From assembly GCA_964017185.1 (NCBI GenBank), contig OZ024871.1, positions 5,701,214-5,765,213 on the forward strand: a stretch of DNA of 64,000 bases, written 5' to 3'. This stretch comes from Rugalucina vietnamica (Eukaryota; Mollusca; Bivalvia; Lucinida; Lucinidae). The translations under genes were made by a program, and so were the position numbers. The notes under the pieces are model-generated. The model was not told where the DNA came from and did not search any database. It worked only from the letters and a program-made list of their open reading frames with translations. Each line of letters opens with the position of its first letter. The first letter of the stretch is position 1. Positions 5,663 through 38,066 of the stretch are shown piece after piece.

Positions 5663-5708
5663 CATCTTTTCCCATGAGATTTCGTTTTCACCGTCATGGG
5701 AAAAGATG
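5663..5708. repeat. Perfect 15-bp hairpin
   Basis: CATCTTTTCCCATGA is followed 16 nt later by its exact complement TCATGGGAAAAGATG. It lies in the non-coding gap. The function is unknown; it may be a miniature foldback insertion. Confidence 0.65.
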
Positions 5709-6103: not shown

Positions 6104-6742
6104 TTATTTCTTATGTCTTATCCTCATATGTGTTGTAAACACCTGAGTGAATAAAGTGTAGAGTGAGTGTAACTTGATCAACGTCTTTCCAGTAATGAAT
6201 GGAATATCTTCACCTGTATCGCCTTTTATACTAATGTGAACTTGATCATTGTAAGATTTTGTAACAGGCACATAATGCAAATTCAAAAACTCTTGATGAA
6301 AATGAATTTCTCCTTCTATGTATTTGAAAGGAATAACTCTAAGTATTGGTGCAGTAACGTCTCCGATATAAGTGTAGTTTGCCACATCTGAGTAAACATA
6401 GAAACGATTGCTATGTATATTTAGATCTACACCATATTTGAACTGATACTTATTGTTTCCTATAGGTTTGCCAAAGAATGTTTTATCGACGCCTAGAATT
6501 TCTGCCAAAGGTTGTGGAAACATCAAATGCATTTCATTTCTATATTCTCCCACGAAACACACTTTTGTACGTTTGCTTTTATTTCCATATGACAGAATGA
6601 CTGAGTGATAAGCTTGGTCCAATGCAGTTTTTAAACGAGCATCGATCACGTTTTGCATCTCGTGGATTAAGTGATGTGCAGAGGTGTAATTAGAATTTGG
6701 AATTTGTAGTCGATATTCTACACAGAATTTTTTTCCGTGCAT
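6104..6742 (-). CDS. Polinton minor capsid (penton-like) protein
   Basis: A 212-residue open frame on the minus strand. The conserved middle and C-terminus match what I know of the single jelly-roll minor capsid protein. They contain MFPQPLAEILG, FYVYSDVANYTYIGDVTAPI followed by a Leu-Arg-Val-Ile-Pro stretch, HYVPVTKSYNDQVHISIKGD, and the closing IPFITGKTLIKLH. The protein is predicted to form capsid vertices. The N-terminus is shorter than in relatives, and the segment just upstream is occupied by the membrane-protein frame. The true start is therefore uncertain, or an N-terminal part has been lost by frameshift. The frame itself has no stop. Confidence 0.8.
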   Translation of the reverse strand: MHGKKFCVEYRLQIPNSNYTSAHHLIHEMQNVIDARLKTALDQAYHSVILSYGNKSKRTKVCFVGEYRNEMHLMFPQPLAEILGVDKTFFGKPIGNNKYQFKYGVDLNIHSNRFYVYSDVANYTYIGDVTAPILRVIPFKYIEGEIHFHQEFLNLHYVPVTKSYNDQVHISIKGDTGEDIPFITGKTLIKLHSLYTLFTQVFTTHMRIRHKK

Positions 6743-7113
6743 ACTTCTGTTTCATCACTGGACAATTTGAGTCTCTTTGCAGCTTGTTCGGTTAATCTTA
6801 GAAAGAAAAAATGTTTTACTTCTTTTGAAAGTTCGTCACTAGAAGAAGACAGAGATTGTTGTTTTCTGAATTTGAGGCCAGGTGATTGCAAAATGTACCC
6901 TATCGAACTGCTGAGTAAAATCAACCACAATTCTTTATCTGGACTTCTCAAACTGATGTGAACTAGGAATGTGATGATTATCATGTAAAATACAATAATC
7001 TGAGTGAAAAATGTTAAAGGAGTTTAAGCTATTTTGGTTTTACTGTCTGCAGATGATTGCACAGAAGTGTTATCACCACTGCGATTGAATGAACTTTTAA
7101 AATCCATTTTCAT
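6718..7113 (-). pseudogene. Two-span membrane protein of Polinton, one nonsense codon
   Basis: The frame starts at the ATG at 7113, six bases after the integrase stop, and ends at 6718, overlapping the penton-like frame. A TAA at 7024-7026 interrupts it after about 29 codons. Two hydrophobic segments are visible, TFFTQIIVFYMIIITFLVHI and LWLILLSSSIGYIL. A Ser-rich acidic stretch and a Lys/Arg-containing tail follow. Small proteins with a similar second segment (Leu-Trp, Leu-Leu-Ser-Ser, Gly-Tyr) are, to my memory, common beside minor capsid genes in mollusc Polintons. The role is unknown; a virion membrane or cell-exit function is possible. Confidence 0.6.
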
Positions 7114-7118
7114 GCTTT

Positions 7119-8151
7119 TATACAAGATCAGACTCTAGAATCCAACTGTCAAATTTCGATGGATATCCTTTCCAGTGTACTTTGATTTCTTTAACCCACT
7201 TTTTTCCAACTTTGCGTTTTCTGTGAGCTAAGACCGAATCGATTTCAAAAATCTGATCTTTTTCGACACGTTGTAACTCTTGAGAGTAGAATGTACCACT
7301 GACAGATTCACCATCGAGATCAGATCAGAAATCTGAAACAATTCCTGTGTCCAATTTGGCAGATATCCTTTGTCAAATGTGCGTTTAGTTTTATTGATCC
7401 TAACATAATCACCTACTTTGATTTTAGTTTGTTTTTGCAGTTTTCTAGGTTTGCCAAAAAGAATTTCAGACACTTGTGGTTCGTTTTCTTTTGTCACAAA
7501 AACAGGTGCACGTTTGATACTTTTGTGATATGCATGATTGTAACCTTCGACTAATTTTGGAAGAACATCGACATATCTCAAAGTGCGATTGCGTGTGAAA
7601 TACTTCCACATGCGACTTTTCAAAGTTCTTTGGAATCTTTCAACAATACTTGCTTTTGTTTCAGGGTTTTTAGTTGTGAAGAAATGAATTTTCTTAGGTT
7701 TTAAAAAACATTGAAAGTCTCTGTTTTTGAATTCTGTACCTTTGTCAGTTTGCAAACTTTTTGGTTGACGTCCATTTTTCAGCACAAGTTTAAATGCACT
7801 TATTAAAGTTTTCCCCGTCTTGTCTGTAATGGGCACTACCCATGCAAATTTTGAAAACACATCGATGATGCAAAGCAGATATCTAAACTTATCATTGGAC
7901 TTTGACAGTTTTGACATGTCTGCTAGATCGGATTGCCATTGATGATCAATTCCTGCAACCACAGTCTTTCGACGTAAAAATGTTCTTCTGATAGGTTTAT
8001 GTAAAGTGTAGGTCTGTTGTGTTTTCAACCAATTTCTGACATCTTTCAATTCGACATTTTTAGAAGATTTTCTAGCAAGCTTGTACAAAGCCTGTTCACC
8101 AGCATAATCTGCAGGACTTTCTGGATCATAATACAATTTTTCAAACTTCAT
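7119..8151 (-). pseudogene. DDE integrase with C-terminal chromodomain, one frame break
   Basis: This is a retroviral-type integrase of Polinton elements that inserts the linear genome into host DNA. The core has the catalytic triad Asp75 (WQSDLADM), Asp136 (QTDKGTEF) and Glu171 (ASIVERFQRTL), giving DD35E spacing. An SH3-like segment (KVGDYVRINKTK) follows. Near 7320 the frame breaks. In another frame a chromodomain-like tail (FEIDSVLAHRK, then VHWKGYPSKFDSWI) runs to the TAA at 7119-7121. The start ATG at 8151 lies seven bases before the end of the upstream gene. The core is intact and only the tail is shifted, so the break is recent or an assembly error. Confidence 0.9.
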
Positions 8152-8157
8152 TATTGA

Positions 8158-8988
8158 TCATCGTAAGTGAGCCACTGTTTGGGTTGGAACTTTGGCGTAG
8201 ACATTTCTTCTTTTATATAACTTTTTTGTAGCAGACAAAAGAGAATACATCTGCTTTTTAATTTTTGCCAGATCGGACGGTGTAAATTTTGATTTGACTT
8301 TTCTTTTAGTTGTTTTCTGTGTTTTAGAAACGGGAATACGACTTGCACGTTTACGTGCTGTCGAAACACGTTTTTGGGCTGGTGTGACATAATTGTCATC
8401 TGGAGTTCTAGGAGAAGATGAAGCGCCCCGATGCATCCACTCCCACCTTTCCCTATTTCCAATAACATCTTGAGGAATATTCATTTCTCCTAACCCTTCT
8501 GCAAACGGTTGACATCCCGTGGGTTCACTGCCTTTTCTATGTCTTAAAACATCATTGACCAAGTCAATGATATTGGATCCTTCAATAGCTTTGCCATAAA
8601 GTTTTACGGTACCATCATCATCCCAAGTCATGTTAGGATTATCGTTTAAAATGTTAAGTAAAAGTTGTGCTTTACGTTTCATCGTGCTAGGTACACTATC
8701 TAATACATGTTGGTTCATTCTAGAGGAACTGGATGTTACACTTGGTAATTTTAAAGAATGATCTTGCAAAGCTTTTTTGTGAGCCGATTGAAATTTGTGT
8801 AAAGTTTCGCCAAATAATTGAGCTTTTTCAGCTTCAGATATGTCTTCGTCAGCCATGACCGAAGATAAGTCTCTCTGAAGACTTGCTGTGGCAGACACAT
8901 TTGGATTAGGTGGTAATCAAGGTTTTTGAATTTGTTCGTCTTTCCAGCGTTTCATGCCTTCTCAAAGTTTAAATGGAACAATGGCCAT
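8158..8988 (-). pseudogene. Conserved Polinton protein of unknown function, two N-terminal stops
   Basis: This frame runs from the ATG at 8988, overlapping the end of the previous gene's spacing, to 8158. Two in-frame TGA codons lie in the first 25 codons (near 8963 and 8923). From 8898 onward it is open for 246 residues. The recognisable conserved blocks are DSVPSTMKRKAQLLLNIL and GSNIIDLVNDVLRHRK. Both recur in a family found beside capsid and integrase genes in animal Polintons. A Lys/Arg-rich C-terminus could bind DNA. No enzymatic motif is seen. Function is unknown; its conservation and position suggest a structural or packaging role. Confidence 0.65.
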
Positions 8989-8989
8989 T

Positions 8990-9394
8990 TTACGCCCTTC
9001 CATGATGAGGATTGAGGAGACCTCCAAGTACTGAACCAACAGTAGGAGCAAGCAAAGGTTTTAGTAATAAACCGAGCAATGCACCTCCTTTCTGATTGAT
9101 AATTTTCTTTTTATCTGGCACAGACACTTGCTTTGAACTCAGTAAACGTATGTGACGTTGTCGAGCTTGCAATTTTTGTTTTTGAGCTTTTGTCAAACGG
9201 ACATTGCCTTTTATAATGTTCAGGCAACATTCACCGACTGAGACTATGACTTCTTTAGGTGAATCATTGATCATTTTTTGACGATATCTAGGTGGTAAAT
9301 GAGTCAGTCCTTCCAGAAAAGAACCATACGATTTGATTAAACTTTTTTTCTTCGATATTTTTCTAGTACGACGCTTTGTTTTAGTTGCTGCCAT
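8990..9394 (-). CDS. Small basic Polinton protein with Gly-Gly tail (copy 1)
   Basis: A 134-residue intact frame. The ATG at 9394 is preferred over upstream codons because a TATA box lies about 48 nt before it. The N-terminus is a Lys/Arg block (TKTKRRTRKISKKKS). The middle has the block EVIVSVGECCLNIIKGNVRL. The C-terminus has the motif IINQKGGALLGLLLKPLLAP followed by more Gly/Leu. The QKGG step resembles a protease site ahead of a hydrophobic segment, as in pVI-like proteins. It appears homologous to the gene at 9821-10291. A virion role is likely but unproven. Confidence 0.6.
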   Translation of the reverse strand: MAATKTKRRTRKISKKKSLIKSYGSFLEGLTHLPPRYRQKMINDSPKEVIVSVGECCLNIIKGNVRLTKAQKQKLQARQRHIRLLSSKQVSVPDKKKIINQKGGALLGLLLKPLLAPTVGSVLGGLLNPHHGRA

Positions 9395-9440
9395 GCTGAT
9401 GCAATTTTGCAAACTGTGTCAAAATTTAGTTGACATTGAG

Positions 9441-9447
9441 CTTTTAT

Positions 9448-9449
<2 letters not shown>
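9441..9449 (-). promoter_or_regulatory. TATA box before basic protein copy 1
   Basis: CTATAAAAG on the minus strand lies about 48 nt upstream of the ATG at 9394. It sits directly beside a 34-nt T run. Confidence 0.55.

Positions 9450-9483
<34 letters not shown>
9450..9483. repeat. 34-nt T homopolymer
   Basis: An uninterrupted T run (A run on the coding strand) separates two Polinton genes. It may be a slippage hot spot or an assembly artefact. Confidence 0.9.
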
Positions 9484-9776
9484 CAAAATAAAAGTCGTTT
9501 TTTAGCAGTTCTTCTTACAAGTTCTTGTTTTGCTCTTTTTATTCTTTCAACATCAGAAGGAAATGCAGTTTGATCATTCATGACAAACTCTTTTGGATCT
9601 AACAAGTGCATATATGGAATAGTTCCGTGTCGTTTCTGAAATGTAGGACTGTTTTGCATGATGTAACGTTGTTTTGAATTCAGAGGTGAAACAATTGGTT
9701 TTGGTGAACTTCTAAGTGGTGAAAATCTTGCAATTGACAAAGACATTCGTCTTGCATTGGCATCAGGTGAAGACAT
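9483..9776 (-). CDS. Short hypothetical Polinton protein
   Basis: A 97-residue frame rich in Ser, Pro, Arg and Lys (SIARFSPLRSSPKPIVSPL), ending in AKKRLLF. There is no domain I recognise. The frame is open upstream of the first ATG into the 3' end of the neighbouring gene, so the start is uncertain. It sits between two related basic proteins, all on the same strand, and is presumably a minor virion or DNA-binding protein. Confidence 0.4.
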
Positions 9777-9820
9777 TCCTAGATTTTGCCAACTTGTACC
9801 TACTGCTGGTGAATTAGGAC

Positions 9821-10291
9821 TTACAGATTTACTTTTTTATTTCTTCTTTTGGTCACAAATTTATCATTAATGCGTTTCTTGGAATGTTTTTTCGCAGGAC
9901 CTTTTTTAGTTTTAGATTTAGATTTCTTTGGAGTTGATCTTTTACGTCTCAAGAGTTTAGTACAATCCCATCGAATCAAACTTCTGATAATTACACCACC
10001 AAAGCAACCACCATCACCATCTGGTTTTAGAATGATTCTACGTTTGACTTCTGGATCTGTCATTGCACTTGCTAATTTTCTTACATCATCTTTATGCCTA
10101 GCCATGAAGTTCTTAGTTTGTTTAGGCAATTTCATTTTCCCCTCAATGATTTTACGAGCTGCAAATGAAAACCATTTGATCATTTCAGCTAAACCTGCAT
10201 TGAGCAAAATTTTTCGTTTTTGAGCATCGTGTTCTTTGCTCAAATTGTAAAGTGCACGAAGCAAGTTAACAGATGTTTTCCCTACAGCCAT
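9821..10291 (-). CDS. Basic Polinton protein with Gly-Gly motif (copy 2)
   Basis: A 156-residue intact frame starting at the ATG at 10291, about 37 nt after a TATA box. It shares a layout with the protein at 8990-9394: an N-terminal helix, a block ending in RHKDDVRKLAS, then RRIILKPDGDGGCFGG with Gly pairs. The tail is a long Lys/Arg/Ser stretch (KKSKSKTKKGPAKKHSKK) typical of a DNA-condensing protein. The two genes probably arose by duplication and diverged. The function is inferred only: core packing of DNA, perhaps with proteolytic maturation at the Gly pairs. Confidence 0.55.
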   Translation of the reverse strand: MAVGKTSVNLLRALYNLSKEHDAQKRKILLNAGLAEMIKWFSFAARKIIEGKMKLPKQTKNFMARHKDDVRKLASAMTDPEVKRRIILKPDGDGGCFGGVIIRSLIRWDCTKLLRRKRSTPKKSKSKTKKGPAKKHSKKRINDKFVTKRRNKKVNL

Positions 10292-10311
10292 GATGACTTA
10301 ACTGATCAATG

Positions 10312-11015
10312 TCAAACCAAACACGCCCTTTTATACGCTTGGAAATGAACCACTGGTCCTGATTGATCTGATTTTGTAAACCAGTGTTGAAAAATATTTG
10401 TTCTCAATCTCAAGTAATTTGGTGTGGTTGGTTTTAAATCGACCAGTAAGTAACCATAAGGTTTTGATGTTGCATCGTTGAAGGCAGGAATCATATGAGG
10501 TGTTTGCAGTTGATTGGAAAGAACTTTGATCTGCATTTTGTCCCTTGGACTTTGGAACAAAACCAGATAATGAGCGTTCAAACTTATCGTGCGGGATACT
10601 TTGCTTTGTTGAAATAAGTTTTGTGTGATGTAGACCAAACTCGCATTTCTGTGATGTCCTTTTCTCGTAAACCACAGCTTAATTTTCTCGTCTTTGTCTC
10701 CTTACATATCGTCAAAGATGACTAAGTGTGGTACACTGACATCAGTGACGATGTCATCCTCGTCATCTGGGATGGTGAGAATGAATTTTATGTTTGATCC
10801 TTCACGTTCTTGCAGGATATTATAGGCAGATTGCCATTCTTTGTAACACCACACAATTTTTGTGGCTGAATGTCAAACAAATCTTCTTTGTATTCAATCA
10901 TTTTCTTAACAGATTCCGTTTTTCCAGAGCCACTAGGACAAGATATAAAAATATTGGCAGTATGTTTGAAGAACAAACTACCAATATCTTGTTGTAAAAC
11001 TTATATAGCTGACAT
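10312..11015 (-). pseudogene. FtsK/A32-type genome-packaging ATPase, disrupted
   Basis: This is the packaging motor ATPase of Polintons. Reading from the ATG at 11015, an in-frame TAA comes four codons later (11001-11003). The P-loop SCPSGSGKT (Walker A) follows, then a frame break in a five-T run near 10857-10861. The family block WCYKEWQ and the Walker B segment HLVIFDD come next. A second in-frame TAA lies at 10702-10704, after which the C-terminal block (SLVYITQNLF, SRTISLNAHYLVLF, SKPYGYLLVDLK) runs to 10312. Total span is about 234 codons, the normal family length. All catalytic motifs survive and only the three breaks disable it. Confidence 0.85.
10328..10335 (-). promoter_or_regulatory. 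TATA box before basic protein copy 2
   Basis: TATAAAAG on the minus strand lies about 37 nt upstream of the ATG at 10291. It is located within the 3' end of the ATPase frame, showing tight gene packing. Confidence 0.55.
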
Positions 11016-11362
11016 GACCTTAACTGTTTAATTGTGTAACAAACTGATTAAAGAACAAGAAAGGCATGTGTTTTTTATATGTTTTTAATAACAAGACAAA
11101 CAAATGTCTGCCAAAAAAAAAATGACAACTTGTAACCTAGAAAAAGTTTTGCTAAAAAATTTAGAACTTGTCACCTAACAATATTTTTTTAAATTAACAT
11201 CAAACAATTGCAAAAACTTTTGTGGAAACAACTTTGTGAACTTGAAATATTATTTAACATTTGCAAAAAAAATCCAAGTTTGAACAAAAAAACCTTTTTG
11301 TCAACTTGTATACTTTGTGTGTTCAAGTCATATCATTCTGTTCAACTTTTTTATTCAGTCTC
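11016..11362. other. Intergenic stretch between polymerase and ATPase genes
   Basis: AT-rich sequence with many A and T runs and no open frame with family motifs. A TATAAAAAA-like sequence on the minus strand near 11068-11076 lies about 55 nt before the ATPase ATG at 11015 and is a plausible promoter. Confidence 0.45.
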
Positions 11363-14300
11363 TTACAAATCAAATCCATAGGGTACCGTGTATCCTTTAA
11401 CGAGAACCATGCGTTTGTTGTACGTGAATTTATAAGTCTTTGTTTGTTCCTCAGTGGTCACTGTTCTATCGCTGTGTTTTTTTTTATTCTATTGTATTTG
11501 GCAGTCACTGAAAAGTTCCTACTTTCAGACTTTGACCATTCCAACATCTGATGGAAATGTATCAGCTGAGACGTGTTATAGTCCAGTGTCAATCCTTTCA
11601 CTTTACATGTAAATTTCCTCTGTTCATCTTTGTCAACATACTCATACCCATAGTTCTTAGGTCCCATACCAACAAATGTCACAATTCTTGCATCTGGTAC
11701 TTCATCAGTCCATTCACCAAGACGATCCCCAATTTCTGGATTCCATTCGTCTGGCTCGTGAACTTAGATGATTGAGTCCGTGTCAAAGTACAAAACTCTT
11801 GCTCCCAGTTTATCTAACTTATCGAACAATCTCAACCTGGCTTGTGCCGTCACAAATGCACCTACAACCACATTGCTACAAGTGTGAGGTTCAACAAGAT
11901 TGTCTGTCTCTTCCCAGTTCACGTGTACAAATCTTTCTCCGTATATGTCTACATTCTTCAAGATCTTAGATGGATTTGTTATCAGTTCAAAATATTTGGC
12001 TGGGTCAGATATGTATTCAGTCTTTGTCATTTTTTCACGCTGTGCCAGCTTACCCCACAAACTGTTCAACATAATTTTGGCTATAGCTCTCAGTCCGGGA
12101 TTTTTTTCTACTTCTTCCAAGGAGATTCCTTCTGCTTCAAAGTAATCACGTTTGAATTTTTCCTTGTCAGCTTCGGTCCTGCACCATTCGGGATAGCCAC
12201 TGGATTCTTGCTTGACTTTCAAAAAGACATCGATGTACTTCGTGAAGATACCACCCTCGCCAGTTTTCTTGTCATATTGTGTCGTCTCCATGAAATGCCA
12301 TACTTCATACACGTCCAGTAATTCATATTCTTTTTTTAATGCAGCCTTTAACTCAATGCTAACCCAAGTTCCTACTAGTGCTCTTTCATCGTCTTCTATA
12401 TGTGTACACTTTTGTGAGGGATCACATCTTTCTGCACAAGTTCTACACTATGGAAACATGAGTTTGTTGTTACATTTGTAGGGAAGTACAGGGTGAAGTA
12501 AGTCTCTAGGAGGCAATACCTTACATTTGATCAGTCCTTCATATTGCTCAATATTGTCTTTGTCCACATTTTCTTGAGATAGGATGGTTGGATGACCCAA
12601 GGGAAACAGTCCATGCTTGCATACGGTTGGGTACAGGGAACAGACGTCAATGTACTTGATTTCATCCTGTGATGTCTCGTCAATTTCATGATAGAGTTTT
12701 GTTGAATTGGTCCGCCCACCAAACAAAGCATCTCTTGGTCTCAGTGGATCTAAGTTGGTGAAATGAGAGTCCACAGTCTTTCTGAATTCTTCGTCCTCTT
12801 TGTACCTTTTGTCATATTCGCATTCCCACATCTCGATAACAAGGTATCCATTGTCTTTGAATTTTTGCATCAGGTAGTTGGTGTTAGTATACAATTGTCC
12901 CATCGTCTGACAGCTTTGTTTGTGAATCGCCTCTCTATCTGGAAAATGTGTTGGACAACCATGCCAGTAACACCCATGGAACTCGTAGATAGTTCTAGAT
13001 TCTCTGTGATAACCATCCACGCAGTGTCCACAAATCCTAACTTGTCCTCCATTCAATGCATGCTGTATCTCTATCCCTTGTTCCTTTGCTATACTTTGAA
13101 TCCATCTCACTGCTTTGATCGAGTAGTTTTTTCTGGTTTGGATACCCTTCTGGAGGAATGATGGCAACACAGTTTTCTGTAGTTCTTTCTCCTTTCTCCA
13201 GACTTTGGAACGGGCTTGGGCAATAGTACAGAATTCCGTCAAAGGATCTAAACCAATGATATCTTTCAGAATCTTTCTGAAGCAGCCGCATCCACGTCTT
13301 AAGATATCCACATCACTACTGCAATACTCCTCCATCTCTCGTCTAAAGTCAAATATCGTTCCAGACTCTACCTTATCGTTGTACCATTTGTAAAATTCGG
13401 TCCTATCCTTTTCAGACATCTGTCCGGGTATGTACATCTCTGCAGGGAAGTAAAGTCCCACATAGTCCTGATTGCCTTGTGTATTGGCAAGATAAGGAAA
13501 GTATCCTTTCTTCATTTCTTTCAATCCAAATTGGCAAGTCTCATGTGCAGAAACAAGTACGAGTCCAGGAATGTCACTTTGCCTATCCTCATTCTCATGA
13601 TCGTATTTCCATTCATGATCACATCAGGTTTCATTGTCCCATTTTCCAAGATATGTCTCAAGATGAACTGTCCATCGTATCGACCAAAGTTATGAGCAAT
13701 GCATGTCACTCCTTTGTTATCGTCTCCCAGTATCCAAGCGCAAAATCTAGATAACGAACCCGTTCCTTCAAAGATCCCCCTGGTAACGCACTGCACCCTG
13801 GACAGAATTCATCACTGGGTAGATCTATGCAGTAATCGCAAGCTCTTTGTGCCACGCAAAAGTTGACTTGATGTTCTCCAGTTTCTGGAGACGACTCGAA
13901 ATCGAAGAAGACGAATTTCGGACCAGTAGTTGATTTCTCTTCATCTTCGCTTTCCTCAGCATCTGAATCTACTGCCTTAGATACATTTTTCTTAGATACA
14001 TATTTCTGAATGTAACATTGATGATTTGGACCTACAATTTCCTTACAGATCTTACACTTTCTATTACCAGGTTATACATGATTCTTTTTGCTACCAATGA
14101 TACGACCTGAACACTTTTCACAATTGTATACAAGTTGACAAATAGATTTCTTCTGATTACCCTTAATTGCCTTATGATTATCAAAACAACTTTGACTCTT
14201 AAAAGTTCTCTTACAATCAACACATTTGATTTTCTGTCCAGTATACATGGAATGTCACTATAGCAACCATCACATCCATCATTGCATCGATGATCTCCTC

Positions 14301-15337
14301 GTTCAGTATACCCCTTATCGCAATACTCGCAGTAGTAAACGCATCCTAGCAGTCCTGTCACCTTGGTTACGGTATCGTAATGTTTGTCCCCATTCCAGTA
14401 CAGATTAATGACTTTCGTCTCTAGTTGTTTCATGAATTGTAGTGGAAAGATCAGTCCATCCTTGGGATGTTGTGAATGGGTTTTGATCAGGTAATCTGGA
14501 GCCAATACAACCAGGATCTTCTTGTACTCTTCAATGCCACAGACTTGGTCGTGAGGAATCTTAGCTTGGTCCAGTAGGGGTCCAGTAACTTCTTTGCTTC
14601 CCGAGTCTGCATCGGACGATCTGAGTACTTAATGTTTTTCCAGTTTTTCTGCCAAGTCTTTGAAAGATAAAAAAGTAGGAAGCGGTCAGTAAAATCTTTT
14701 TGTAAAACTTTGATATATGAAAATGTATATACAAACAGTGCATATAAAATTCAACTCCAAAAAATTTAAAAAATAATTAGAAATAAAAAATAACTAGTAG
14801 GCTTAAATTAGTTTTACAGGGTCCTAACCTGAATCGTCTTTGTCAGCATTACATTTCCCCACCACCAGCACAGCTCTAGCCATACACATCACATCGTCCG
14901 TAATGTTGATCTGTACAACACTTCGTTTGTTCTGTCTCATGGTCTCTGACTCGAAATACAGACCATGGTGTAGTGGTTTTCTTCCAGCACCAGTAGGGAG
15001 TTTACATGTAGTCACATCAATCCTCATCTGTCCATCGTTTCTCTTGAAATTGTCATTGGATTGCATCACTTTCTCAATTTCTTGTAGGATGATTTCTCCA
15101 GTCAACGAGGATACATCACGCCATGTCACAAATACTCCCAGTTTCAGGCCTGAATGGTTGACAGTCATACGGATTTTGTCATCACATGCCACTTCGATTC
15201 AGTCTCTCTCTTCAGCTTGATATCAAAATATTTGTCATCAGACACTTTCTGCCTTTTGCCGGGTTGTGGCCTCATCATCTTATCTTCACTCTCCTCACTA
15301 TCGGAATAATCTATCAGTCTTCATGTTTATTTGCCAT
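11363..15337 (-). pseudogene. Protein-primed family B DNA polymerase (pPolB), disrupted
   Basis: This is the replicative polymerase of the Polinton, about 4 kb and 1,200-1,300 codons, as expected. The exonuclease is marked by FFDFESS (near 13905), AHNFGRYDGQFIL (near 13690) and EEYCSSDVDIL (near 13320). A TPR-bearing insertion follows. The polymerase motifs are YIDVCSLYP (A, near 12655), KIMLNSLWGKLAQR (B, near 12065), YFDTDS (C, near 11785) and PKNYGY (near 11658). The C-terminus GYTVPYGF ends at the TAA at 11363-11365. Stops lie near 12449 and at 11764-11766. Frame changes occur near 11400, 13525, 13800-14030, 14510 and 15195, and a gap or intron lies near 14663-14829. A Cys-rich knuckle region (YYCEYCDKGY) near 14320 is normal for the family. 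The start at 15337 follows a TATA box. Confidence 0.85.
14663..14829 (-). other. AT-rich gap in pPolB: intron or inserted Penelope-like fragment
   Basis: Polymerase-like sequence stops near 14830 (CAG followed by GTTAGG) and resumes after TTTCAAAG near 14663. That could be a small intron of about 165 nt. However, the first 60 nt (14770-14829) closely match the 3' untranslated region of the Penelope-like elements in this window, including the word CCTGTAAAAC and TTTAAGCC. It is therefore at least partly a retroelement fragment; whether it is spliced cannot be told from sequence alone. Confidence 0.4.
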
Positions 15338-16914: not shown

Positions 16915-19080
16915 AATATAAAAAGGTACAAGTAGGCAAAGATCAGGAAAAGGCGCAATCAGAAAAAGATTCCCACTCCAAAAACCGAGGTGGGAAAAAC
17001 CAAACTAACAATCAGGTACTTATACCATGAAACAATCGTAAGCCGAATGGGCAGCTATTTTCCCAATAGGTGGCCACTCAGTTACCTTAACTTAACTAAA
17101 AATATGAAAACATACATAAGGCGCCAACAGCACGAAAAATTTTTAAACACCAAGACATAAAACAAAAAGAACCACCACAGAAGTATCGACTTGGAACGAT
17201 CAGTAACACAAAGTTACTGGCGGGCTTAAACCGGTTTTACATGGCCATAACCTCACCCTCAGCTTCTGCAGTGGTTCATAACATTTAGTTAGTTATTCGG
17301 TCCTCGTGGTGAATCTCTAACTAGTCAATGAATCATCAAGAACAAACAAATAAATCATGATAAACATCCTGATGAATCAAAAACCAGGACTCACAGACTG
17401 AGTAAGCTGCCCGACGATGGAGATCCCTGGGCGCCGAATAACCTACTAACTCCGGAGCAAAAGAAAAACACCAGTTGGACCCCGGTGGGCCAAGCAACAG
17501 ACAAGAAGCTCCGGCCCCAACCAACTAAAATGAATAGCTTTATGTCGGGGCCATCATAGAGTCTGACGCCCGACCCACCGGCGTGCAATTAAAGAAGGCA
17601 GCATAGTTATCAACCATGATTGGGTTAAAAACTAAGCATGCAGACTGTCGCATAACATTCAAGTTATAACCTATACGTTTGTAACGTGTTATGATTTTTC
17701 TGAACTGAAAAGAAAAATCATTAATTCCTTTAAGTTTCTTAAATTTGTAAACCAAGTCACCATAAAATTCAGGTTCCGAAAGGCCCTCACTTAAAAGCGT
17801 CTTTAACCCAACATTATATTTGGAAATCAATTCATAGTGTCTACGATAAAATTTAGAAAATGTTTTTCGAAGTTTATGATACCGATAGCCCTGTTGGAGA
17901 AGTTTTGCCGTTAAACATTTATTTCGAGCGTTGAAGTCTGTAACATGATTGCAGACTCTAGCAAACCTAATAAGTTGCGAAATGTATACACCATAAGAAG
18001 CACGACGAGGAACGTCACCATCCAAAAAAGGAAAATTTACTATATCAAAATCAAAGGCATCGCGCTTATCATAAATTTTAGAAGAAACAAATCCATTTGC
18101 AACAGAAAGATGTAGATCTAAAAAGGGGGCTTCAGTATCTGAGATATTGGCTTTGTTCAACTGAAGTTCAGGTGGATAAATTTGATTGACCATACCTTCA
18201 AAATAAGGGTTGTCAATGTTCAATAGGTCATCGAGGTACCTAGATGTGGAATTAAAAGCCTCGATAACATCAGCTTGATTATCATGGTTAAGAGAATCCA
18301 TGAAATCTCTTTCGTAGCAGTATAAAAATAAATCAGCTACGAGAGGTGCGCAATTTGTACCCATCGGAATTCCAACAATTTGTCTGTATAACTTGGTCCC
18401 AAATCTAATATAAATATTATCAAGGAGATAGGATAAGGCGTCGCATACATTCTGACATGACCAAAGTGTATACCGACTTTGGTCAGAGGAAGTGAAAAAA
18501 GCCTTTCTGTCATTACATGCCAAATAAAGTGAACCATAGTTTTTTAATGCCCTTTTGAAGGTCCACTCTATCAAATCCAGAAGTTTTTCTTTAATTAGAT
18601 TATGTGGTAATGTTGTATACAGAGTAGAAAAATCATATGTGGACAAGCTTGTCGCACGGAACCCTCTACACTTCAATTTACTGAGCACCTCACCAGAATT
18701 TTTAATTGACCAAAACCAATTTTTATTTGAAGTTTCATACACTGTCTCACAGTATCTTATAACATGAAATTTGATAGCAGTAAGACAGGAAGTTAATAAT
18801 TTAGAAAGTTCAGTGGTAGTACAAGAGCTAGAATTTGCAATAAATCTAGCTTTGTATGGTCTTTTGTGAAGCTTAGGTAACCAATACATCGTAGGAAGTT
18901 TGTTTTGGCCTTCATTGACACAAACAGAAAACTTAACAGGTAAATCGTTTAAGTGGGCATTAACTACAGACACCTCATCAGTATCTGTCTCCAGATAAGC
19001 CCTGGTACCATCAAGCTCCTGTTTTAAGGTTAGAGCACGAAGACGGAGACATGGTATCATTTGGAAACTGGAAGCTGTTC
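16915..19080 (-). mobile_element. Penelope-like retroelement, copy A (5'-truncated)
   Basis: This is a minus-strand copy. The 3' untranslated region runs from 16915 (ending in GGTACCTTTTT-like sequence, read leftward) to 17539, and the reverse-transcriptase frame from 17540 to about 19080. The same 3' region recurs at about 24.1, 26.9, 28.3, 32.0 and 36.6 kb, which defines the family. The copy separates the F-box-like gene from the next rightward gene, so it inserted into the Polinton arm. Exact target duplications were not found. Confidence 0.8.
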
Positions 19081-19087
19081 GAGACAC
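17540..19087 (-). CDS. Penelope-like reverse transcriptase (515 residues)
   Basis: This frame encodes an RT with the motif order of Penelope-like elements. The motifs are LPTMYWLPKLHKRPYKARFI, STYDFSTLYTTLPHN (motif A), GIPMGTNCAPLVADLFL (motif B), SRYLDDLLN (motif C, a YLDD form) and SRFLDLHLS-type downstream blocks. It ends in a conserved tail, NCTPVGRASDSMMAPT. There is no GIY-YIG endonuclease after the RT. That is expected for the Naiad/Chlamys type, where the nuclease is N-terminal and would be lost in this 5'-truncated copy. The first codons (to about 19060) may be flank. The clade assignment is from memory of the family and is less sure than the RT call. Confidence 0.8.
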   Translation of the reverse strand: MSRTASSFQMIPCLRLRALTLKQELDGTRAYLETDTDEVSVVNAHLNDLPVKFSVCVNEGQNKLPTMYWLPKLHKRPYKARFIANSSSCTTTELSKLLTSCLTAIKFHVIRYCETVYETSNKNWFWSIKNSGEVLSKLKCRGFRATSLSTYDFSTLYTTLPHNLIKEKLLDLIEWTFKRALKNYGSLYLACNDRKAFFTSSDQSRYTLWSCQNVCDALSYLLDNIYIRFGTKLYRQIVGIPMGTNCAPLVADLFLYCYERDFMDSLNHDNQADVIEAFNSTSRYLDDLLNIDNPYFEGMVNQIYPPELQLNKANISDTEAPFLDLHLSVANGFVSSKIYDKRDAFDFDIVNFPFLDGDVPRRASYGVYISQLIRFARVCNHVTDFNARNKCLTAKLLQQGYRYHKLRKTFSKFYRRHYELISKYNVGLKTLLSEGLSEPEFYGDLVYKFKKLKGINDFSFQFRKIITRYKRIGYNLNVMRQSACLVFNPIMVDNYAAFFNCTPVGRASDSMMAPT

Positions 19088-19576: not shown

Positions 19577-20428
19577 ATGTCACAAGATCCAAGAAAAGAA
19601 AACGTCAGTGACCCAAAGAGTATATACTATCAACATCGAGCATTGATGAATGGTACCTTTACGCATGCTGCGCCAGGGTATAAAGTCGACGACACAGACT
19701 CACATAATCATTCTACTTCAAATCGTCAAAGAGTAAACATGGATTCAACTATGAGCAGTGAGACTAAGAGTATCTACTACCACTTCATGTCTTTGAAGAA
19801 ACTTCTCACTACAGATGAGCTTCAACAGCTATAACCATTAGAAGATACGCTGAAGGCACAAGGAAAACTTGCTCCACCTTTTGGTCAATGTTACTACTGT
19901 AAAGAAACAACACACTCGGCCAGCGATTGTTTGAAACTAAAGCTTGCAAAACCAGCACATGGACAATGTTTCAAGTGCGGTTCGTTCGATCACTGGGCTT
20001 CAAAGTGTCCACAGAAAGATGAGTCAAAAACAGAGAAAATTTCAACATCAACTGAATCAACTGCAGTGGTGGAAAAGACAAATAAACGACGACTGGTAGA
20101 ATATTCCGATAGCTATAAGAGTGAAGATGTGTCAGAGCCGACTCCAAGCAAGCAGCGAAAAGTAGAAAAGACAGCTGAGCCAAAGAAGACGAAACGAAGG
20201 ATTCCTAAGAAGAAGCATTGTTTCATCTGTAAATCAAAGACTCATGATGCCAAGACCTGTGACGAAATTGCTCTTGATCCAGAGGATGTAGCGGGGATCA
20301 CTTATTTTGCCCTTGGCTTGTTTCTCCGCCACAGTACAAATATTTATTCCAACAAAAAACACAACTTGATATTTCAACTTATTTTATTTATTTTTACACA
20401 CAATATCAACCTTTTAATTTCGCCTTAG
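19577..20428 (+). pseudogene. Triple CCHC zinc-knuckle protein, one nonsense codon
   Basis: The frame runs 284 codons with a single in-frame TAA at 19832-19834. After it, in the same frame, come three retroviral-type knuckles of exact CX2CX4HX4C spacing: CYYCKETTHSASDC, CFKCGSFDHWASKC and CFICKSKTHDAKTC. A Lys-rich, Ser/Thr-rich linker separates the second and third. The N-terminal part has two similar blocks around SIYYQH and SIYYHF. Zinc knuckles bind single-stranded nucleic acid, and the family is gag-like or CNBP-like. Here no RT or protease is attached, and the gene is TATA-driven and packed with the element's other genes. Possible roles are nucleic-acid binding or RNA control. The last 50 codons after DPEDVAG look non-native. 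Confidence 0.6.
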
Positions 20429-20809: not shown

Positions 20810-20993
20810 GAAGTCTTTCTGAAGATTTGGTCAGTAAAGTTTTTACAAAGATATTCTTTCTGAAGATTTGGTCAGCATTATTTTTTACAAACATATTCTT
20901 TCTGAAGATATGGTCAGTAACATTATTACAAAGATATTCTATCTGAAGATTTGGTCAGTAACAATATTACAAAGGTATTCTTTCTGAAGATTT
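20810..20993. repeat. Tandem repeat, about 41-bp unit, roughly five copies
   Basis: The unit contains TATTCTTTCTGAAGATTTGG followed by TCAGTAA and an AT-rich spacer. Read on the minus strand, each unit contains a CAGAAAGAATA word identical to the purine-rich element just downstream of the histone-type stem-loop at 20997-21012. The array is thus an amplification of that 3' processing segment. Confidence 0.75.
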
Positions 20994-21220
20994 AGTAGTC
21001 CTGAAAAGGACTGTTTGGTCATGAGAGACAAGAGATTCCTAAGGCCTTCGAGGCATTGGTCTAACACTGGCCACTGGTTTGCAGTAACCAATGCCTCTTC
21101 TGGCCAAAAATATCTGTATCCCCATCTTGTTTTGTTGCTTCTCAATTTCCCGATAATCGTTTTTGTGAAAAGCAGCTCACAATTTCCTAAGACTAAATCT
21201 AAATTTCTCAAAGAACTCAA
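20939..21220 (-). pseudogene. Small gene ending in a histone-type stem-loop, start and stop lost
   Basis: An open frame of 93 codons lacks an ATG and runs through the stem-loop at 20997-21012 without a stop. Yet it is preceded by a TATA box (21259-21266) and CCAAT words, and is followed by the stem-loop. Stops in the other two frames lie 10-25 nt before the loop, so a frame shift near the end is likely. The protein has no recognised domain. Visible pieces are RNLDLVLGNCELLFTKTII and RWGYRYFWPEEALVTANQW. It is not a histone. Confidence 0.4.
20997..21012 (-). promoter_or_regulatory. Histone-type mRNA 3' stem-loop
   Basis: On the minus strand AGTCCTTTTCAGGACT forms a 6-bp stem with a TTTC tetraloop. 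It is preceded by CCAAAC and followed by ACTA. About 12 nt downstream is CAGAAAGAATA, fitting a U7-binding histone downstream element. The size, loop and flanks match the metazoan consensus for SLBP recognition. Confidence 0.75.
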
Positions 21221-21258
21221 TAGTTCCAGAATGTACAGAAAGAGGCACTGAACACGAT

Positions 21259-21266
21259 GTTATATA
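21259..21266 (-). promoter_or_regulatory. TATA box, with CCAAT words upstream
   Basis: TATATAAC on the minus strand lies about 40 nt before the open frame at 21220. Two plus-strand AACCAATSA words at about 21300 and 21328 could be CCAAT-type elements. Confidence 0.4.
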
Positions 21267-21449
21267 GTCGATGAGTAGGATTGACCTACATTTTAATCAG
21301 AACCAATCAAATGCGTTTTGATCAGAACCAATGAGAGCACACTTATACACATACGATCACGCCACAAAGATCACACCATATCCATAAGACAACACATATA
21401 CAACAAAGATACACTGATAAAAAGTTATTTCTTTCGGAATGAAATATGT

Positions 21450-21465
21450 GGCCCTGAAAAGGGCC
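21450..21465 (-). promoter_or_regulatory. Histone-type mRNA 3' stem-loop
   Basis: On the minus strand GGCCCTTTTCAGGGCC, a perfect 6-bp stem with a TTTC loop, lies 24 nt after the TAA of the upstream gene. It has CCTAAC before it and ACATA after it. The purine-rich word CGAAAGAAATAA follows about 13 nt downstream. This is the near-exact consensus of replication-dependent histone mRNAs. Confidence 0.85.
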
Positions 21466-21489
21466 GTTAGGTGGAACTTAAGCCACAGA

Positions 21490-21935
21490 TTAGGAACAGG
21501 CACAGTATCTGCTCCCGCAGGCAGGACAGCGCTGTCCCCAACGATCAAACTTGACAGTTCCGTAGGTAGGAACTGAAAGACCCCTGCCTTCAAAATGATA
21601 AGTTGGCTCGTTAGCCTCAGACTCCCAGTCTTCTGTCTTTTCGGTGTAGTTATGACTGGGTTTGTCATCATCCCAGTCCTCTTCTGACACAATTGGTGAC
21701 AACGCCTCCCTCTTGATCTCCACTTTTTCTACAACCCGTCCTCCATGAGCTAAATTCATAGCTCGTCGCGTCATACTGATCATGGTCTTTAAGTTAGCCA
21801 CTGTCCGCTGCAAGGACTCAGCCCTGTTCCTGAAAGTGTCGATAGCTTCTAACATGCTAGTACCACCCCACCAATTCTGTCCGCCTGCTCCTCCAAATCC
21901 CTCAAGTAGCACTCACAATCAAACTGTTTCGCCAT
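21490..21935 (-). pseudogene. Coiled-coil protein with C-terminal Cys motif, histone-type 3' end, one frame break
   Basis: The frame starts at the ATG at 21935, 41 nt after a TATA box, and opens with MAKQFDCECYLRDLEEQADR. A frame change near 21860 is needed to enter the long downstream frame. That frame has heptad-like helices (IDTFRNRAESLQRTVANLKT), an acidic central part and a C-terminal CPACGSRYCAC cluster that may bind a metal. The TAA at 21490-21492 is followed by the stem-loop. No family is recognised and it is not a histone. It is divergently transcribed from the gene at 22140 across a 200-bp shared promoter region. Confidence 0.55.
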
Positions 21936-21975
21936 TGTACACGAACAAAGTGTACAGAACTGCAAAATGTGTTTG

Positions 21976-21983
21976 CTTTTATA
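21976..21983 (-). promoter_or_regulatory. TATA box, leftward side of a divergent promoter
   Basis: TATAAAAG on the minus strand lies 41 nt before the ATG at 21935. The 115 bp to its right holds AACCAATCAG and an inverted pair (ACCTACTTT at about 21999 and AAAGTAGGT at about 22078). Confidence 0.6.
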
Positions 21984-22098
21984 CTCTCTGGGGGGATTGA
22001 CCTACTTTAAACTTCAAACCAATCAGAAGTTCTAGTATAAGTCACAAATCACAGCCAACTTTACAAACATGAGACTGAAAGTAGGTCCCCTCAGTGAG

Positions 22099-22106
22099 AA
22101 TAAAAG
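22099..22106 (+). promoter_or_regulatory. TATA-like box, rightward side of the divergent promoter
   Basis: AATAAAAG lies about 34 nt before the ATG at 22140, within GTGAGAATAAAAGC. It is weaker than the leftward box. Confidence 0.4.
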
Positions 22107-22139
22107 CTTAGCTCAACAGTCCAACATTCATGTTCAGTC

Positions 22140-22557
22140 ATGGCTTCGAGTCAAATCAGCTTTGATGATATGATTAACAATCCAGACATATTACTGCAAG
22201 CATGTAATGAAGTCTTTACTAATGACACGGTTACAACACAACAACAGTACTATCAGCAACCAGTACAAGTGACTTCTCCTTACCAACAACAGACATATGC
22301 AACAACAGTTGCATAGAACACAAATTATAGATGTCTTGGTTAAAGAACTCAATGAGTTGAAAACCAAAGTCAAACAACTGGAAGAAGAAGTACAGCGACA
22401 AGCCCAGATGCCAACTATACAGTTCCAAGCGATTAGAATGCCTATCAGATTAGATATCATCAATAGTGAACAATCGACTACATCATCTCCAGCTGTAGGA
22501 TTAGGCATAGCTAAGAAAGAAATACAAGCAACCAATCGAAAGAAGACTACAAAATAA
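22140..22557 (+). pseudogene. Gln-rich/leucine-zipper protein, histone-type 3' end, one frame break
   Basis: The ATG at 22140 (MASSQISFDDMINNPDILLQ) opens a Gln-rich frame that hits a TAG at about 22312-22314. One base away, the frame at 22297-22557 continues the same composition and enters a coiled coil, VKELNELKTKVKQLEEEVQR. A basic tail (NRKKTTK) follows. The break lies in a CAACAACAG repeat. The stop is 31 nt before a perfect histone-type stem-loop. No family is recognised; the zipper and basic tail suggest a DNA-binding or regulatory protein. Confidence 0.55.
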
Positions 22558-22588
22558 AACTTAGACTTCACAAAAAACACACTTAAAC

Positions 22589-22604
22589 AGCCCTTTTCAG
22601 GGCT
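22589..22604 (+). promoter_or_regulatory. Histone-type mRNA 3' stem-loop
   Basis: AGCCCTTTTCAGGGCT has a 6-bp stem and a TTTC loop, with TTAAAC before and ACCA after. ACCA is the exact consensus flank. CTGAAAGATAA, a candidate U7-binding element, lies about 13 nt downstream. Confidence 0.85.
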
Positions 22605-22721
22605 ACCAACTATTTCTGAAAGATAACCCTTTATGCACATTATTTGAAGTCCCTGTCTTGACTCAAGTATACTTACCTACACATGCAACTTAGCTAGTTC
22701 AATTTTAAACTGAGACCCAGG

Positions 22722-22876
22722 GTGCGCACCTATAGGCCAAAACATATAGGCTAAAACTTATAGGCCAAAACTTATGGCCAATTCTGCCGCTACGCTTAAC
22801 AGAATTGGCCCATCAGTTTTGGCCTATAAGTTTTGGCCTATAAGTTTTGGACTATAAGTTTTGGCCAATAGTGCCC
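22722..22876. repeat. Foldback element with about 65-bp arms built of a 14-bp repeat
   Basis: TATAGGCCAAAACT-like units repeat four times on the left (from 22731) and reappear inverted on the right (TTTTGGCCTATAAG units to 22868). The arms flank a 12-nt centre. Outer GTGCGCACC/GTGCCCCC words also pair loosely. It may mark the right edge of the Polinton or be an independent foldback insertion. Confidence 0.8.
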
Positions 22877-24104: not shown

Positions 24105-25065
24105 AAAAGGTACAAGTAGGCAACGATCAGGAAAAGGCGCAATCAGAAAAGATTCCCCACTCCAAAAACTGAGGCGGGAAAAAACAAACCAACAATAAGG
24201 TACCAATACCATGAAAACAATTCGTACGCCGAATAGGCAGCTATATTCCCAATAGGTGACCACTCAGTTACCTCAACTTAACTAAAAATATGATAACATA
24301 CATAAGGCGCCAACAGCAAAAAGAAAAAAACAAAAAACAAAAAAAAAAAGAAAAAAAAAAAAAAAAAAAAAAAACAAGAGCGATCAGTAATAAAAAATTA
24401 CTGGCAGGCTTAAACGGGTTTTACAGGTACCGAACCGCAACCTTAGGTTCTGCAGTGGTTCACAACATTTAGTAAGTTGTTGGTGAATCTATAACTAGTC
24501 AAAGAATCATCATGGACAAACATATAAATCATGATAAATTCCATGATGAATCAAGAACGAGGACTCACAGATTGAGTAAGCTGCCCGACGATGGAGATCC
24601 CTGGGCGCCCAATAACTTACTCCGGAGCAAAAGAAAAACACCAGTTGAACCCCGGTGGGCCAAGCAACAGACAAGAAGCTCCAGCCCCAACCAATTAAAA
24701 TGAATAACTTTGTGTCGGGGCCATCATAGAGTATGACGCCCGACCCACTGGCGTGCAATTAAAGAAGGCAACATAGTTATCAACCGTGATTGGGTTAAAA
24801 ACTAAGCACGCGGACTGTCGCATAACATTTAAGTTATATCCTATACGTCTGTAACGCGTAATGATTTTTCTTAATTGAAAAGAAAAAATCATTCTTCACT
24901 ATAAGTTTCTTAAATTTGTAAACCAGGTCACCATAAAATTCTGGTTCCGAAAGGCCCTCGCGGAAAATGGTCTCTAGCCAAACATTTAATTTGGAAATCA
25001 GTTCATAGTGTCTGCGATAAAATTTTAGAAAAGGTTTTTCGAAGTTTATGAGTCCGATAGCCATA
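24105..25065 (-). mobile_element. Penelope-like retroelement, copy B, first of three pieces
   Basis: This holds the 3' untranslated region and the C-terminal 110 codons of the RT on the minus strand, with frame breaks. It ends abruptly at 25065 in the KLRKTF region, where a TIR element with a TA duplication begins. The sequence resumes at 30806 (copy F) and then at 61703 (copy I). An internal A-rich stretch (24318-24375) replaces part of the untranslated region. Confidence 0.8.
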
Positions 25066-27934: not shown

Positions 27935-28316
27935 TTAGGTTTGCAAGAGTCTGCAATCATGTTACAGACTTCAACGCTCGAAATAAATGTTTAACGGCCA
28001 AACTTCTCCAACAGGGTTATCGGTATCATAAACTTCGAAAAACCTTTTCTAAATTTTATCGTAGACACTATGAATTGATTTCTAAATATAATGTTGGGTT
28101 AAAGACGCTTTTAAGTGGGGGCCTTTCGGAACCAGAATTTTATGGTGACTTGGTTTACAATTTTAAGAAACTTATAGGAAGTAATGATTTTTCTTTTCAG
28201 TTTAGAAAAATCATAACATGTTACAAACGTATAGGTTATAACTCGGGCAGTTAACTGAATCTGTGAGTCCCTGTTTTTGATTCATCAGGATGTTTATCAT
28301 GATTTATTTGTTTGTT
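27935..28316 (+). mobile_element. Penelope-like fragment, copy D
   Basis: An RT fragment (from the NHVTDFNARNKCL region to RYKRIGYN) with an internal deletion that joins it directly to the 3' untranslated region. It meets copy E tail to tail at 28316/28317. Confidence 0.75.
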
Positions 28317-28650
28317 CAACAAATAAATCATGATAAACATCCTGATGAATCAAAAACCAGGACTCACAGATTGAGTAAGCTGCCCGACGATGGAGATCCC
28401 TGGGTGCCGAATAACCTACTTACTCCGGAGCAAAAGAAAAACACCAGTAGGACCCTGGTGGGCCAAGCAACAGACAAGAAGCTCAGGCCCCAAGCTTTAA
28501 GTCGGGGCCATCATAGAGTCTGACGCCCGACCCACCGGCATGCAATTAAAGAAGGCAGCATAGTTATCAACCATGATTGGGTTAAAAACTAAGCATGCAG
28601 ACTGTCGCATAACATTCAAGTAATAACCTATACGTCTGTAACGTGTTATG
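28317..28650 (-). mobile_element. Penelope-like fragment, copy E, inverted against copy D
   Basis: A minus-strand 3' untranslated region plus the last RT codons, ending at 28650 in the ITRY-K region. With copy D it forms a palindrome of about 60-bp arms (28256-28374) centred on TTTGTTCAAC. Confidence 0.8.
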
Positions 28651-31711: not shown

Positions 31712-32693
31712 TCAGTAAATTTTATCGTAGACACTATGAATTGATTTCCAAATATAATGTTGCGTTAAAGACGCTTTTAAGTGAGGGCCTTTCGGAACCT
31801 GAATTTTATGGTGACTTGGTTTACAAATTTAATAAACTTAAAGGAATTAACGATTTTTCTTTTCAGTTCAGAAAAATCATAACACGTTACAGACGTACAG
31901 GTTATAACTTGAATGTTATGCGACAGTCTGCATGCTTAGTTTTTAACCCAATCATGGTTGATAACTATGCTGCCTTCTTTAATTGCACGCCGGTGGGTTG
32001 GGCGTCAGACTCTTTGATGGCCCCGACTTAAATCTATTCATTTTAGTTGGTTGGGGCCGGAGCCTCTTGTCTGTTGCTTGGCCCACCGGGGTCCTTCTGG
32101 TGTTTTTCTTTTGCTCAGGAGTTAGTAGGTTATTCGGCGCCCAGGGATCTCCATCGTCGGGCAGCTTACTCAATCTGTGAGTCCTGGGTTTTGATTCATC
32201 AGGATGTTTATCATGATTTATTTGTTTGTTCTTGATTATTCATTGACTAGTTAGAGATTCACGACTAGGACCAAATAACTAACTAAATGTTATGAACCAA
32301 TGCAGAAGCTGAGGGTGAGGTTAGGTACCTGTAAAACCGGTTTAAGCCCGCCAGTAACTTTGTGTTATAACTTTGTGTTACTGATCGTTCCAAGTCGATA
32401 CTTCTGTAGTGTTTTTTTTTTTTTTTTTTTTTTTTTTGTTTTATGTCTTGGTGTTTAAAATTTTTTGTGCTGTTGGCGCCTTATGTATGCTTTCATATTT
32501 TTAGTTAAGTTAAGGTAACTGAGTGGCCACCTATTGGGAAAATAGCTGCTCATTCGGCTTACGATATGTTTCATGGTATAAAGTACCTGATATGATTGTT
32601 AGTTTGTTTTTTTCCCACCTCGGTTTTTGGAGTGGGAAACTTTTTTCTGATTGCGCCTTTTCCTGATCTTTGCCTACTTGTACCTTTTTAAAA
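31712..32693 (+). mobile_element. Penelope-like retroelement, copy G (5'-truncated)
   Basis: A plus-strand copy. Its RT C-terminus is open from KFSKFYRRHYELISK to FNCTPVGWASDSLMAPT (31712-32031), then the full 3' untranslated region runs to 32693. Codons upstream of 31712 in the same open frame are unrelated flank. A 29-nt T run (32408-32436) lies within the untranslated region. It is close in sequence to copies A and H. Confidence 0.85.
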
Positions 32694-36611: not shown

Positions 36612-38066
36612 ATTTTTAAAAAGGTACAAGTAGGCAAAGATCAGGAAAAGGCGCAATCAGAAAGAGATTCCCACTCCAAAAACCGAGGTGGGAAAAAACC
36701 AAACTAACAATCAGGCTATTATACCATGAAACATATCGTAAGCCGAATGAGCAGCTATTTTCCCAATAGGTGGCCACTCAGTTACCTTTACTTAACTAAA
36801 AATATGAAAACATACATAAGGCGCCAACAGCACAAAAAAATTAAAAAACCAAGACATAAAACAAAAAGAACCACCACAAAAGTATCGCCTTGGAACGATC
36901 AGTAACACAAAGTTACTGGCGGGCTTAAACCGGTTTTACAGGATCCTAACCTCACCCTCAGCTTCTGCAGTGGTTCATAACATTTAGTAAGTTCTTCGGT
37001 CCTCGTGGTGAATCTCTAACTATTCAATGAATCATCAAGGACAAACAAATAAATCATGATAAACATCCTGATGAATCAAAAACAAGGACTCACAGATTGA
37101 GTAAGCTGCCCGACGATGGAGATCCCTGGGCGCCGAATAACCTACTAACTCAGGAGCAAAAGAAAATCACCTGTTGAACCTCGGTGGGCCAAGCAACAGA
37201 CAAGAAGCTCCGGCCCCAACCAACTAAAATGAATAGCTTTAAGTCGGGGCCATCATAGAGTCTGACGCCCTACCCACCGGCGTGCAATTAAAGAAGGCAG
37301 CATAGTTATCAACCATGATTGGGTTAAAAACTAAGCATGCAGACTGTCGCATAACATTCAAGTTATAACCTATACGTCTGTAACGTGTTATGATTTTTCT
37401 GAACTGAAAAGAAAACTCATTAATTCCTATAAGTTTCTTAAATTTGTAAACTAAGTCACCATAAAATTCAGGTTCCGAAAGGCCCTCACTTAAAAGCGTC
37501 TTTAATCCAACATTATATTTGGAAATCAATTCACAGTGTCTACGATAAAATTTAGAAAAGGTTTTTCGAAGTTTATGATACCGATAGCCCTGTTGGAGAA
37601 GTTTTGCCGTTAAACATTTATTTCGAGCGTTGAAGTCTGAAACATAATTGCAGACTCTAGCAAACCTAATAAGTTGCGAAATGTAAACACCATAAGAAGC
37701 ACGATGAGGAACGTCACCATCCAAGAAAGGAAAATTTACTATATCAAAATCAAAGTCATCGCGCTTATCATAAATTTTAGAAGAAACAAATCCATTTGCA
37801 ACAGAAAGATGTAGATCTAAAAAGGGGGCTTTGGTATCTGAGATATTGGCTTTGTTCAACTGAAGTTCAGGTGGATAAATTTGATTGACCATACCTTCAA
37901 AATAAGGGTTGTCAATGTTCAAAAGGTTATCGAGGTACCTAAATGTGGAATTAAAAGCCTCGATAACATCAGCTTGATTATCATGGTTAAGAGAATCCAT
38001 GAAATCTCTTTCGTAGCAGTATAAAAATAAATCAGCTACAAGAGGTGCGCAATTTGTACCCATCGG

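Follow-up and report, generated by a model that had tools for sequence, protein, structure and literature searches.

The 3′ ends of histone mRNAs are made by a dedicated route, in which, according to the excerpted text of one paper, SLBP sits on the loop of a terminal hairpin, U7 snRNP sits on a downstream element and CPSF73 cleaves between the two; in the mouse, that element contains AAAGAG as its purine core and pairs with U7 snRNA (PMC7026596). In one bivalve, as far as the excerpted text of a second paper goes, histone mRNAs bear the palindrome, and purine-rich elements are present in only some of its histone genes (PMC6210712). A viral use of this machinery is described in an excerpt on SARS-CoV-2, whose frameshifting uses host SLBP (PMC12166091); that virus and the locus described here would both profit from SLBP, there on a frameshift RNA and here at a putative mRNA 3′ end. 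A preprint on gene exchange among animal viruses describes histone-like proteins in adomaviruses, one of them from clam data, and the terms 'stem-loop' and 'polyadenyl' are absent from it (PMC11071296), just as 'stem-loop', 'SLBP' and 'polyadenyl' are absent from a review of viral histones (PMC9145170). Judged by the titles and abstract openings of the literature matches listed, none links histone stem-loops to Polintons or adintoviruses, and within the literature covered histone-type 3′ ends on Polinton genes appear to be new. The locus shares an integrase, a type-B DNA polymerase (PolB), a weak protease match and accessory genes past PolB with Polinton/Maverick elements and adintoviruses, and it differs from them in the histone-type 3′ ends of its accessory genes.

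The window, by which we mean the whole 64 kb stretch of DNA that was analysed, holds a Polinton/adintovirus core on the minus strand (1935–15192), recognised by Pfam matches and open reading frames, with putative protease, integrase and PolB frames between 1.9 and 14.5 kb, among other frames. Pfam searches of the window frames returned an integrase (rve, PF00665, E 5.7e-12) and PolB (PF03175, E 1.7e-20), the pairing of a retrovirus-like integrase with PolB that is looked for in Polintons and adintoviruses; the match to the adenovirus-type protease is weak (PF00770, E 0.0023, 18.1 bits against a cut-off of 21.3). Small accessory frames follow past the core, including a zinc-knuckle protein frame near 20 kb (zf-CCHC in Pfam; 19931–20428, plus strand), with the core on one side of it and the hairpin genes on the other. 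A segment beside the PolB arm (15282–15333) and a segment of the zinc-knuckle frame (20079–20128) show inverted similarity over 52 nt (82.7%, E 1e-6). A repeat that is multi-copy in the window, and whose long frame (17540–19087) we take, by eye, to encode a Penelope-like reverse transcriptase, is inserted at about 16.9–19.1 kb. Three hairpin genes occupy 20.8–22.65 kb, past this inserted repeat. Terminal inverted repeats enclosing the genes were not recognised within the window, and the left end may fall outside it.

Some further features of the window are recorded here as observations in their own right. Matches to the SECIS (selenocysteine insertion) model all lie within copies of one repeat, by eye a Penelope-like retroelement; two, with 39.0 and 37.4 bits, exceed the gathering score (17498–17565 and 37197–37264, both minus strand), three are weaker (32006–32073 plus, 28471–28522 minus and 24668–24735 minus), and the one at 17.5 kb overlaps the stop of the repeat's long frame. 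Two facing arrays of the 14-nt unit TATAGGCCAAAACT stand immediately past gene 3 (22731–22870), and a long palindrome at 28258–28372, to which several microRNA models respond without reaching gathering score, is possibly a small inverted-repeat transposon.

With the ends of metazoan replication-dependent histone mRNAs the three genes share a 16-nt hairpin, a UUUC loop, an A-rich 5′ flank and an ACCA-like 3′ flank, and with histone genes they share a purine core at 14–16 nt, a stop codon 24–31 nt upstream, short length, a TATA-like box and the lack of an apparent intron. They differ from histone genes in that their proteins show no match to histones, that they stand beside a virus-like transposon, and that gene 1 carries five U7-site-like units. 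The hairpins are AGTCCT-TTTC-AGGACT for gene 1 (20997–21012, minus), GGCCCT-TTTC-AGGGCC for gene 2 (21450–21465, minus) and AGCCCT-TTTC-AGGGCT for gene 3 (22589–22604, plus), and each of the three stems pairs in full at its six positions. The first-pass annotation of this DNA had described three hairpins with 6-bp stems and TTTC loops at these positions and on these strands, with AAAC or TAAC before and ACCA, ACTA or ACAT after, two of them 24–31 nt past a stop, and we found every part of this description to hold. The flanks are AAAC and ACTA in gene 1, TAAC and ACAT in gene 2, and AAAC and ACCA in gene 3, and stop and stem are 24 nt apart in gene 2 and 31 nt apart in gene 3 (26 nt in gene 1, from its shorter frame).

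The histone 3′ model RF00032, which had been proposed as a check and is independent of how the hairpins were noticed, was run on the window, and the refuting outcome named in the first-pass annotation, scores under threshold for all three hairpins, did not occur. Its matches span 20971–21017 minus (gene 1), 21425–21470 minus (gene 2) and 22584–22628 plus (gene 3), with no fourth match at E 10 or better anywhere in the 64 kb. The gene 2 hairpin passes the gathering score (35.1 versus 34 bits), and those of gene 1 (27.6 bits, E 0.0011) and gene 3 (30.7 bits, E 7.9e-5) stay under it, the E-values referring to a search of the whole Rfam library; for these two the claim is that the hairpin probably works like a histone 3′ end, not that it is a member of the family. 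The second G-C pair and the loop U's of the histone stem-loop are important to SLBP, and both are unchanged across the three hairpins. Genes 1 and 3 resemble each other at their 3′ ends over 47 nt (78.7%, E 0.023).

The hairpin pattern AAVRGYYCTTTTCAGRRCYAC, which was built post hoc to fit the three hairpins and the known consensus, has three matches in the window; 100 dinucleotide shuffles have none, and the count expected from base composition is 5.7e-6. As 33-nt RNAs, the hairpins are equalled in folding by only 4, 0 and 1 of 200 shuffles; within 88 nt of surrounding sequence these hairpins still form, and the whole fold of gene 1 is matched by 112 of 200 shuffles. Two-sided changes are seen at two of the six stem pairs and the other four pairs are invariant among the three hairpins compared, a covariation that is weak with three sequences and is equalled by 61 of 500 shuffles. 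Such hairpins might also arise by chance, or act in the DNA as terminators or as replication or recombination sites, and resemble histone ends only in looks. There is room for this in a window with 35 sites of perfect 6-bp stem and 4-nt loop, and once the purine core is left off, the hairpin pattern also turns up at seven loci in IMG/VR (2.9 million contigs). However, a loop starting with TTT is found in only 4 of 70 strand readings of the window sites, three of these being the hairpins described here, with their histone-type flanks and purine core, and all seven IMG/VR loci fall short of the gathering score of RF00032.

Six of these IMG/VR loci have six stem pairs, with G-U allowed, and one has five. 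Two are matched by RF00032, L003 at 25.1 bits, within a 528-aa open frame, and L007 at 17.1 bits, while the remaining L001, L002, L004, L005 and L006 lie in nearly one common sequence context. A scan of IMG/VR for the 3′ stem half with the purine core gave 25 loci, none with a six-pair stem (best 5), and Rfam at gathering score returned no match on the 10 of these loci to which it was applied. Searching IMG/VR with PolB, the integrase and the gene 3 alignment brought up no related locus. These scans lower the odds of chance; as IMG/VR gave no relative of the element, they bear on chance and not on how frequent such hairpins are in Polintons. We rate chance or a role in the DNA as very improbable and read the hairpins as putative 3′ ends of histone type.

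Downstream of the stem, the first-pass annotation had noted a purine-rich AAAGA element 12–15 nt on. AAAGA is indeed present behind all three hairpins, starting at +14 in gene 1, +16 in gene 2 and +15 in gene 3 relative to the stem end, and lies in the U7-site-like elements GAAAGAAA of gene 2 (21428–21435, minus) and TGAAAGAT of gene 3 (22617–22624, plus). Behind the gene 1 stem-loop stands a 41-nt tandem array (20812–20993, minus) with five copies of the U7-site-like TCTTCAGAAAGAAT, at 20812, 20853, 20895, 20936 and 20977 (spacing 41–42 nt), three of them exact and two with one mismatch. Allowing up to two mismatches, TCTTCAGAAAGAAT occurs eight times in the whole window, against a mean of 1.43 and a largest value of 5 in 100 shuffles. 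In both relatives of the gene 1 region, known only as proteins, we read from the residues the repeated unit in three frames (LQKEY, FRKN and SSERI), so the array seems to belong to the repeated element in general, beyond the copy in this window. U7 snRNA itself is not among the Rfam matches within the window.

A putative promoter module lies upstream of each gene and consists of a GTAGGTC box followed after 8–24 nt by a TATA-like hexamer. Sequence alignment and pattern counts place it, together with a CCAAT box, at 21260–21308 (minus) for gene 1, with GATTGGTT, GTAGGTC and TATATAA, and at 21977–22024 (minus) for gene 2, with TATAAAA as the last box; a pattern match at 22081–22105 (plus) gives GTAGGTC and the TATA-like AATAAAA for gene 3. 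Three occurrences of the module were counted in the window, each upstream of one hairpin gene and on its strand, and 100 shuffles gave a mean of 0.10 and at most 2, none with three, for a pattern that was defined after viewing the alignment of the three upstream regions. The CCAAT box GATTGGTT just ahead of the module in genes 1 and 2 has two matches in the window (shuffle mean 0.00), and the stem-loop follows the TATA-like box at 0.25–0.51 kb. By themselves, the promoters of genes 2 and 3 are only weakly similar (E 3.5). The motif AAGTAGGTCAATCC, taken alone with up to three mismatches, was rejected as unenriched (8 occurrences versus a shuffle mean of 5.7, with 20 of 100 shuffles reaching 8); enrichment is confined to its core combined with the TATA-like box. 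The module also stands upstream of gene 1, which ties the hairpin that had previously been left without a gene to the same system. Together, the promoter module and the repeated U7-site-like unit go beyond what the first-pass annotation contained and strengthen its case.

The products of genes 2 and 3 were characterised through their relatives. Gene 2 (21490–21935, minus) is predicted from related clusters and a model of the relative P0001 to encode a long helix with a Cys-rich end, and gene 3 (22140–22557, plus) is predicted from related clusters and a model of P0024 to encode a long helix with a disordered tail; the structure models, long helices followed by disordered tails, are of low confidence (the two models have mean pLDDT values of 64.5 and 59.7). 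For gene 2 there are 11 related clusters with 65 listed member sequences (61–85% identity, 133–153 aa); the protein is in one frame there, and the window copy is divided between two frames. Gene 3 has 21 related clusters (210 member sequences as listed), 16 of which encode 139–146 aa in one frame, and the window copy lies in two overlapping frames; the alignment of 16 clusters, as we read it, suggests two diverged subfamilies. One gene 3 relative, P0012, agrees with the window at every residue of the second frame yet has 140 aa in one frame, and is either a near-identical intact copy or the window gene annotated otherwise. The claim that none of the three proteins is a histone agrees with Pfam, where neither the gene 2 and gene 3 frames of the window nor five relatives of genes 1–3 had a histone match; in PHROGs, relatives of the three genes matched nothing strongly.

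Gene 1 is less clear in its coding. Its region has two related protein clusters, and a frame of 45 codons from stop to stop, 28 aa from the first ATG, ends 26 nt before the stem-loop (21039–21176, minus; coding uncertain). This shorter frame has an in-frame stop, with no ATG upstream of that stop, and a longer frame continues through the hairpin, so that an mRNA processed there would have no stop. Residues across the hairpin are identical in both relatives, and in one of them the residue that follows the loop is changed, as an ACCA flank would allow. Over 21039–21180 a codon-by-codon comparison of the two relatives shows 8 distinct changes, 4 of them synonymous in the shorter frame; only changes that alter the other frame are visible, and the comparison is suggestive at most. 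The product may come from the frame stopping before the hairpin or from the read-through frame.

The state of these copies bears on whether the cassettes could be a promoter and 3′ end copied from a host histone locus, now decayed and useless to the element. The window copies of genes 1–3 do look damaged, as such a copy would. Against this, the proteins of genes 2 and 3 are conserved across many clusters, the hairpins are perfect despite the broken reading frames that adjoin them, and a core-histone remnant was not found in the window by tblastn with the four core histones (best E 0.43), a search on which we also reject the decayed host histone cluster named as a refuting outcome in the first-pass annotation. 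We thus regard a useless decayed copy as very improbable, and histone-style cassettes that serve the element as the better account of the three genes.

A more serious alternative accepts the signals as real and assigns the three genes to a host cluster, or to some other repeat, that merely adjoins a Polinton. It gains from the terminal repeats not being found in the window, from the nearest other frame, that of the zinc-knuckle protein, stopping at 20428, and from the 210 listed member sequences of gene 3 in 21 clusters, which could also fit a host array. Yet this high copy number and the two diverged gene 3 subfamilies fit a mobile element, and 20079–20128 resembles 15282–15333 beside the PolB arm. 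Moreover, one gene 2 relative and one gene 3 relative are listed on contigs that are both 6,139,545 long, and from this shared size the pair is probably together elsewhere. Adjacency, copy number, co-listed relatives and the 52-nt similarity are what suggest that genes 1–3 are part of the Polinton, and we hold a host cluster or adjoining repeat to be unlikely. The earlier proposal that genes in a Polinton arm use the histone 3′ pathway accordingly stands in part: RF00032, the purine cores, the non-histone proteins and the Polinton neighbours speak for it, and terminal repeats that would bound the genes were not found in the window.

Conventional polyadenylation signals are also present. In gene 3 an AATAAA overlaps the stop codon, and in gene 2 an ATTAAA lies 192 nt past the stop, and these count against an exclusive use of histone-type 3′ processing. 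Among the other frames of the element, 7 of 16 have AATAAA or ATTAAA within 300 nt after the stop, which gives no clear contrast.

On the evidence of the sequence, we consider it probable that genes 1–3 are compact histone-style cassettes of a Polinton/adintovirus-like element whose mRNAs are ended by SLBP/U7-dependent cleavage without poly(A). Host SLBP would bind the stem-loop and U7 snRNP the AAAGA element, and CPSF73 would cut between them, leaving an mRNA that ends past the loop and lacks poly(A). Such mRNAs would follow histone mRNAs in their production, translation and removal, chiefly during S phase or through maternal SLBP stores, a timing that would suit a replicating element in need of its accessory proteins.

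Our results further incline us, by somewhat better than an even chance, to the broader reading that an animal Polinton/adintovirus lineage may run histone-mimic accessory cassettes, with a promoter module, SLBP loops and amplified U7 sites, that are tied to host DNA synthesis and bypass polyadenylation. If this is true, a mobile element uses histone mRNA 3′ ends for non-histone proteins, and the pathway would be open to takeover. The genes would then offer a natural non-histone reporter for SLBP and U7 function, and would hint at how Polintons time their genes to replication.
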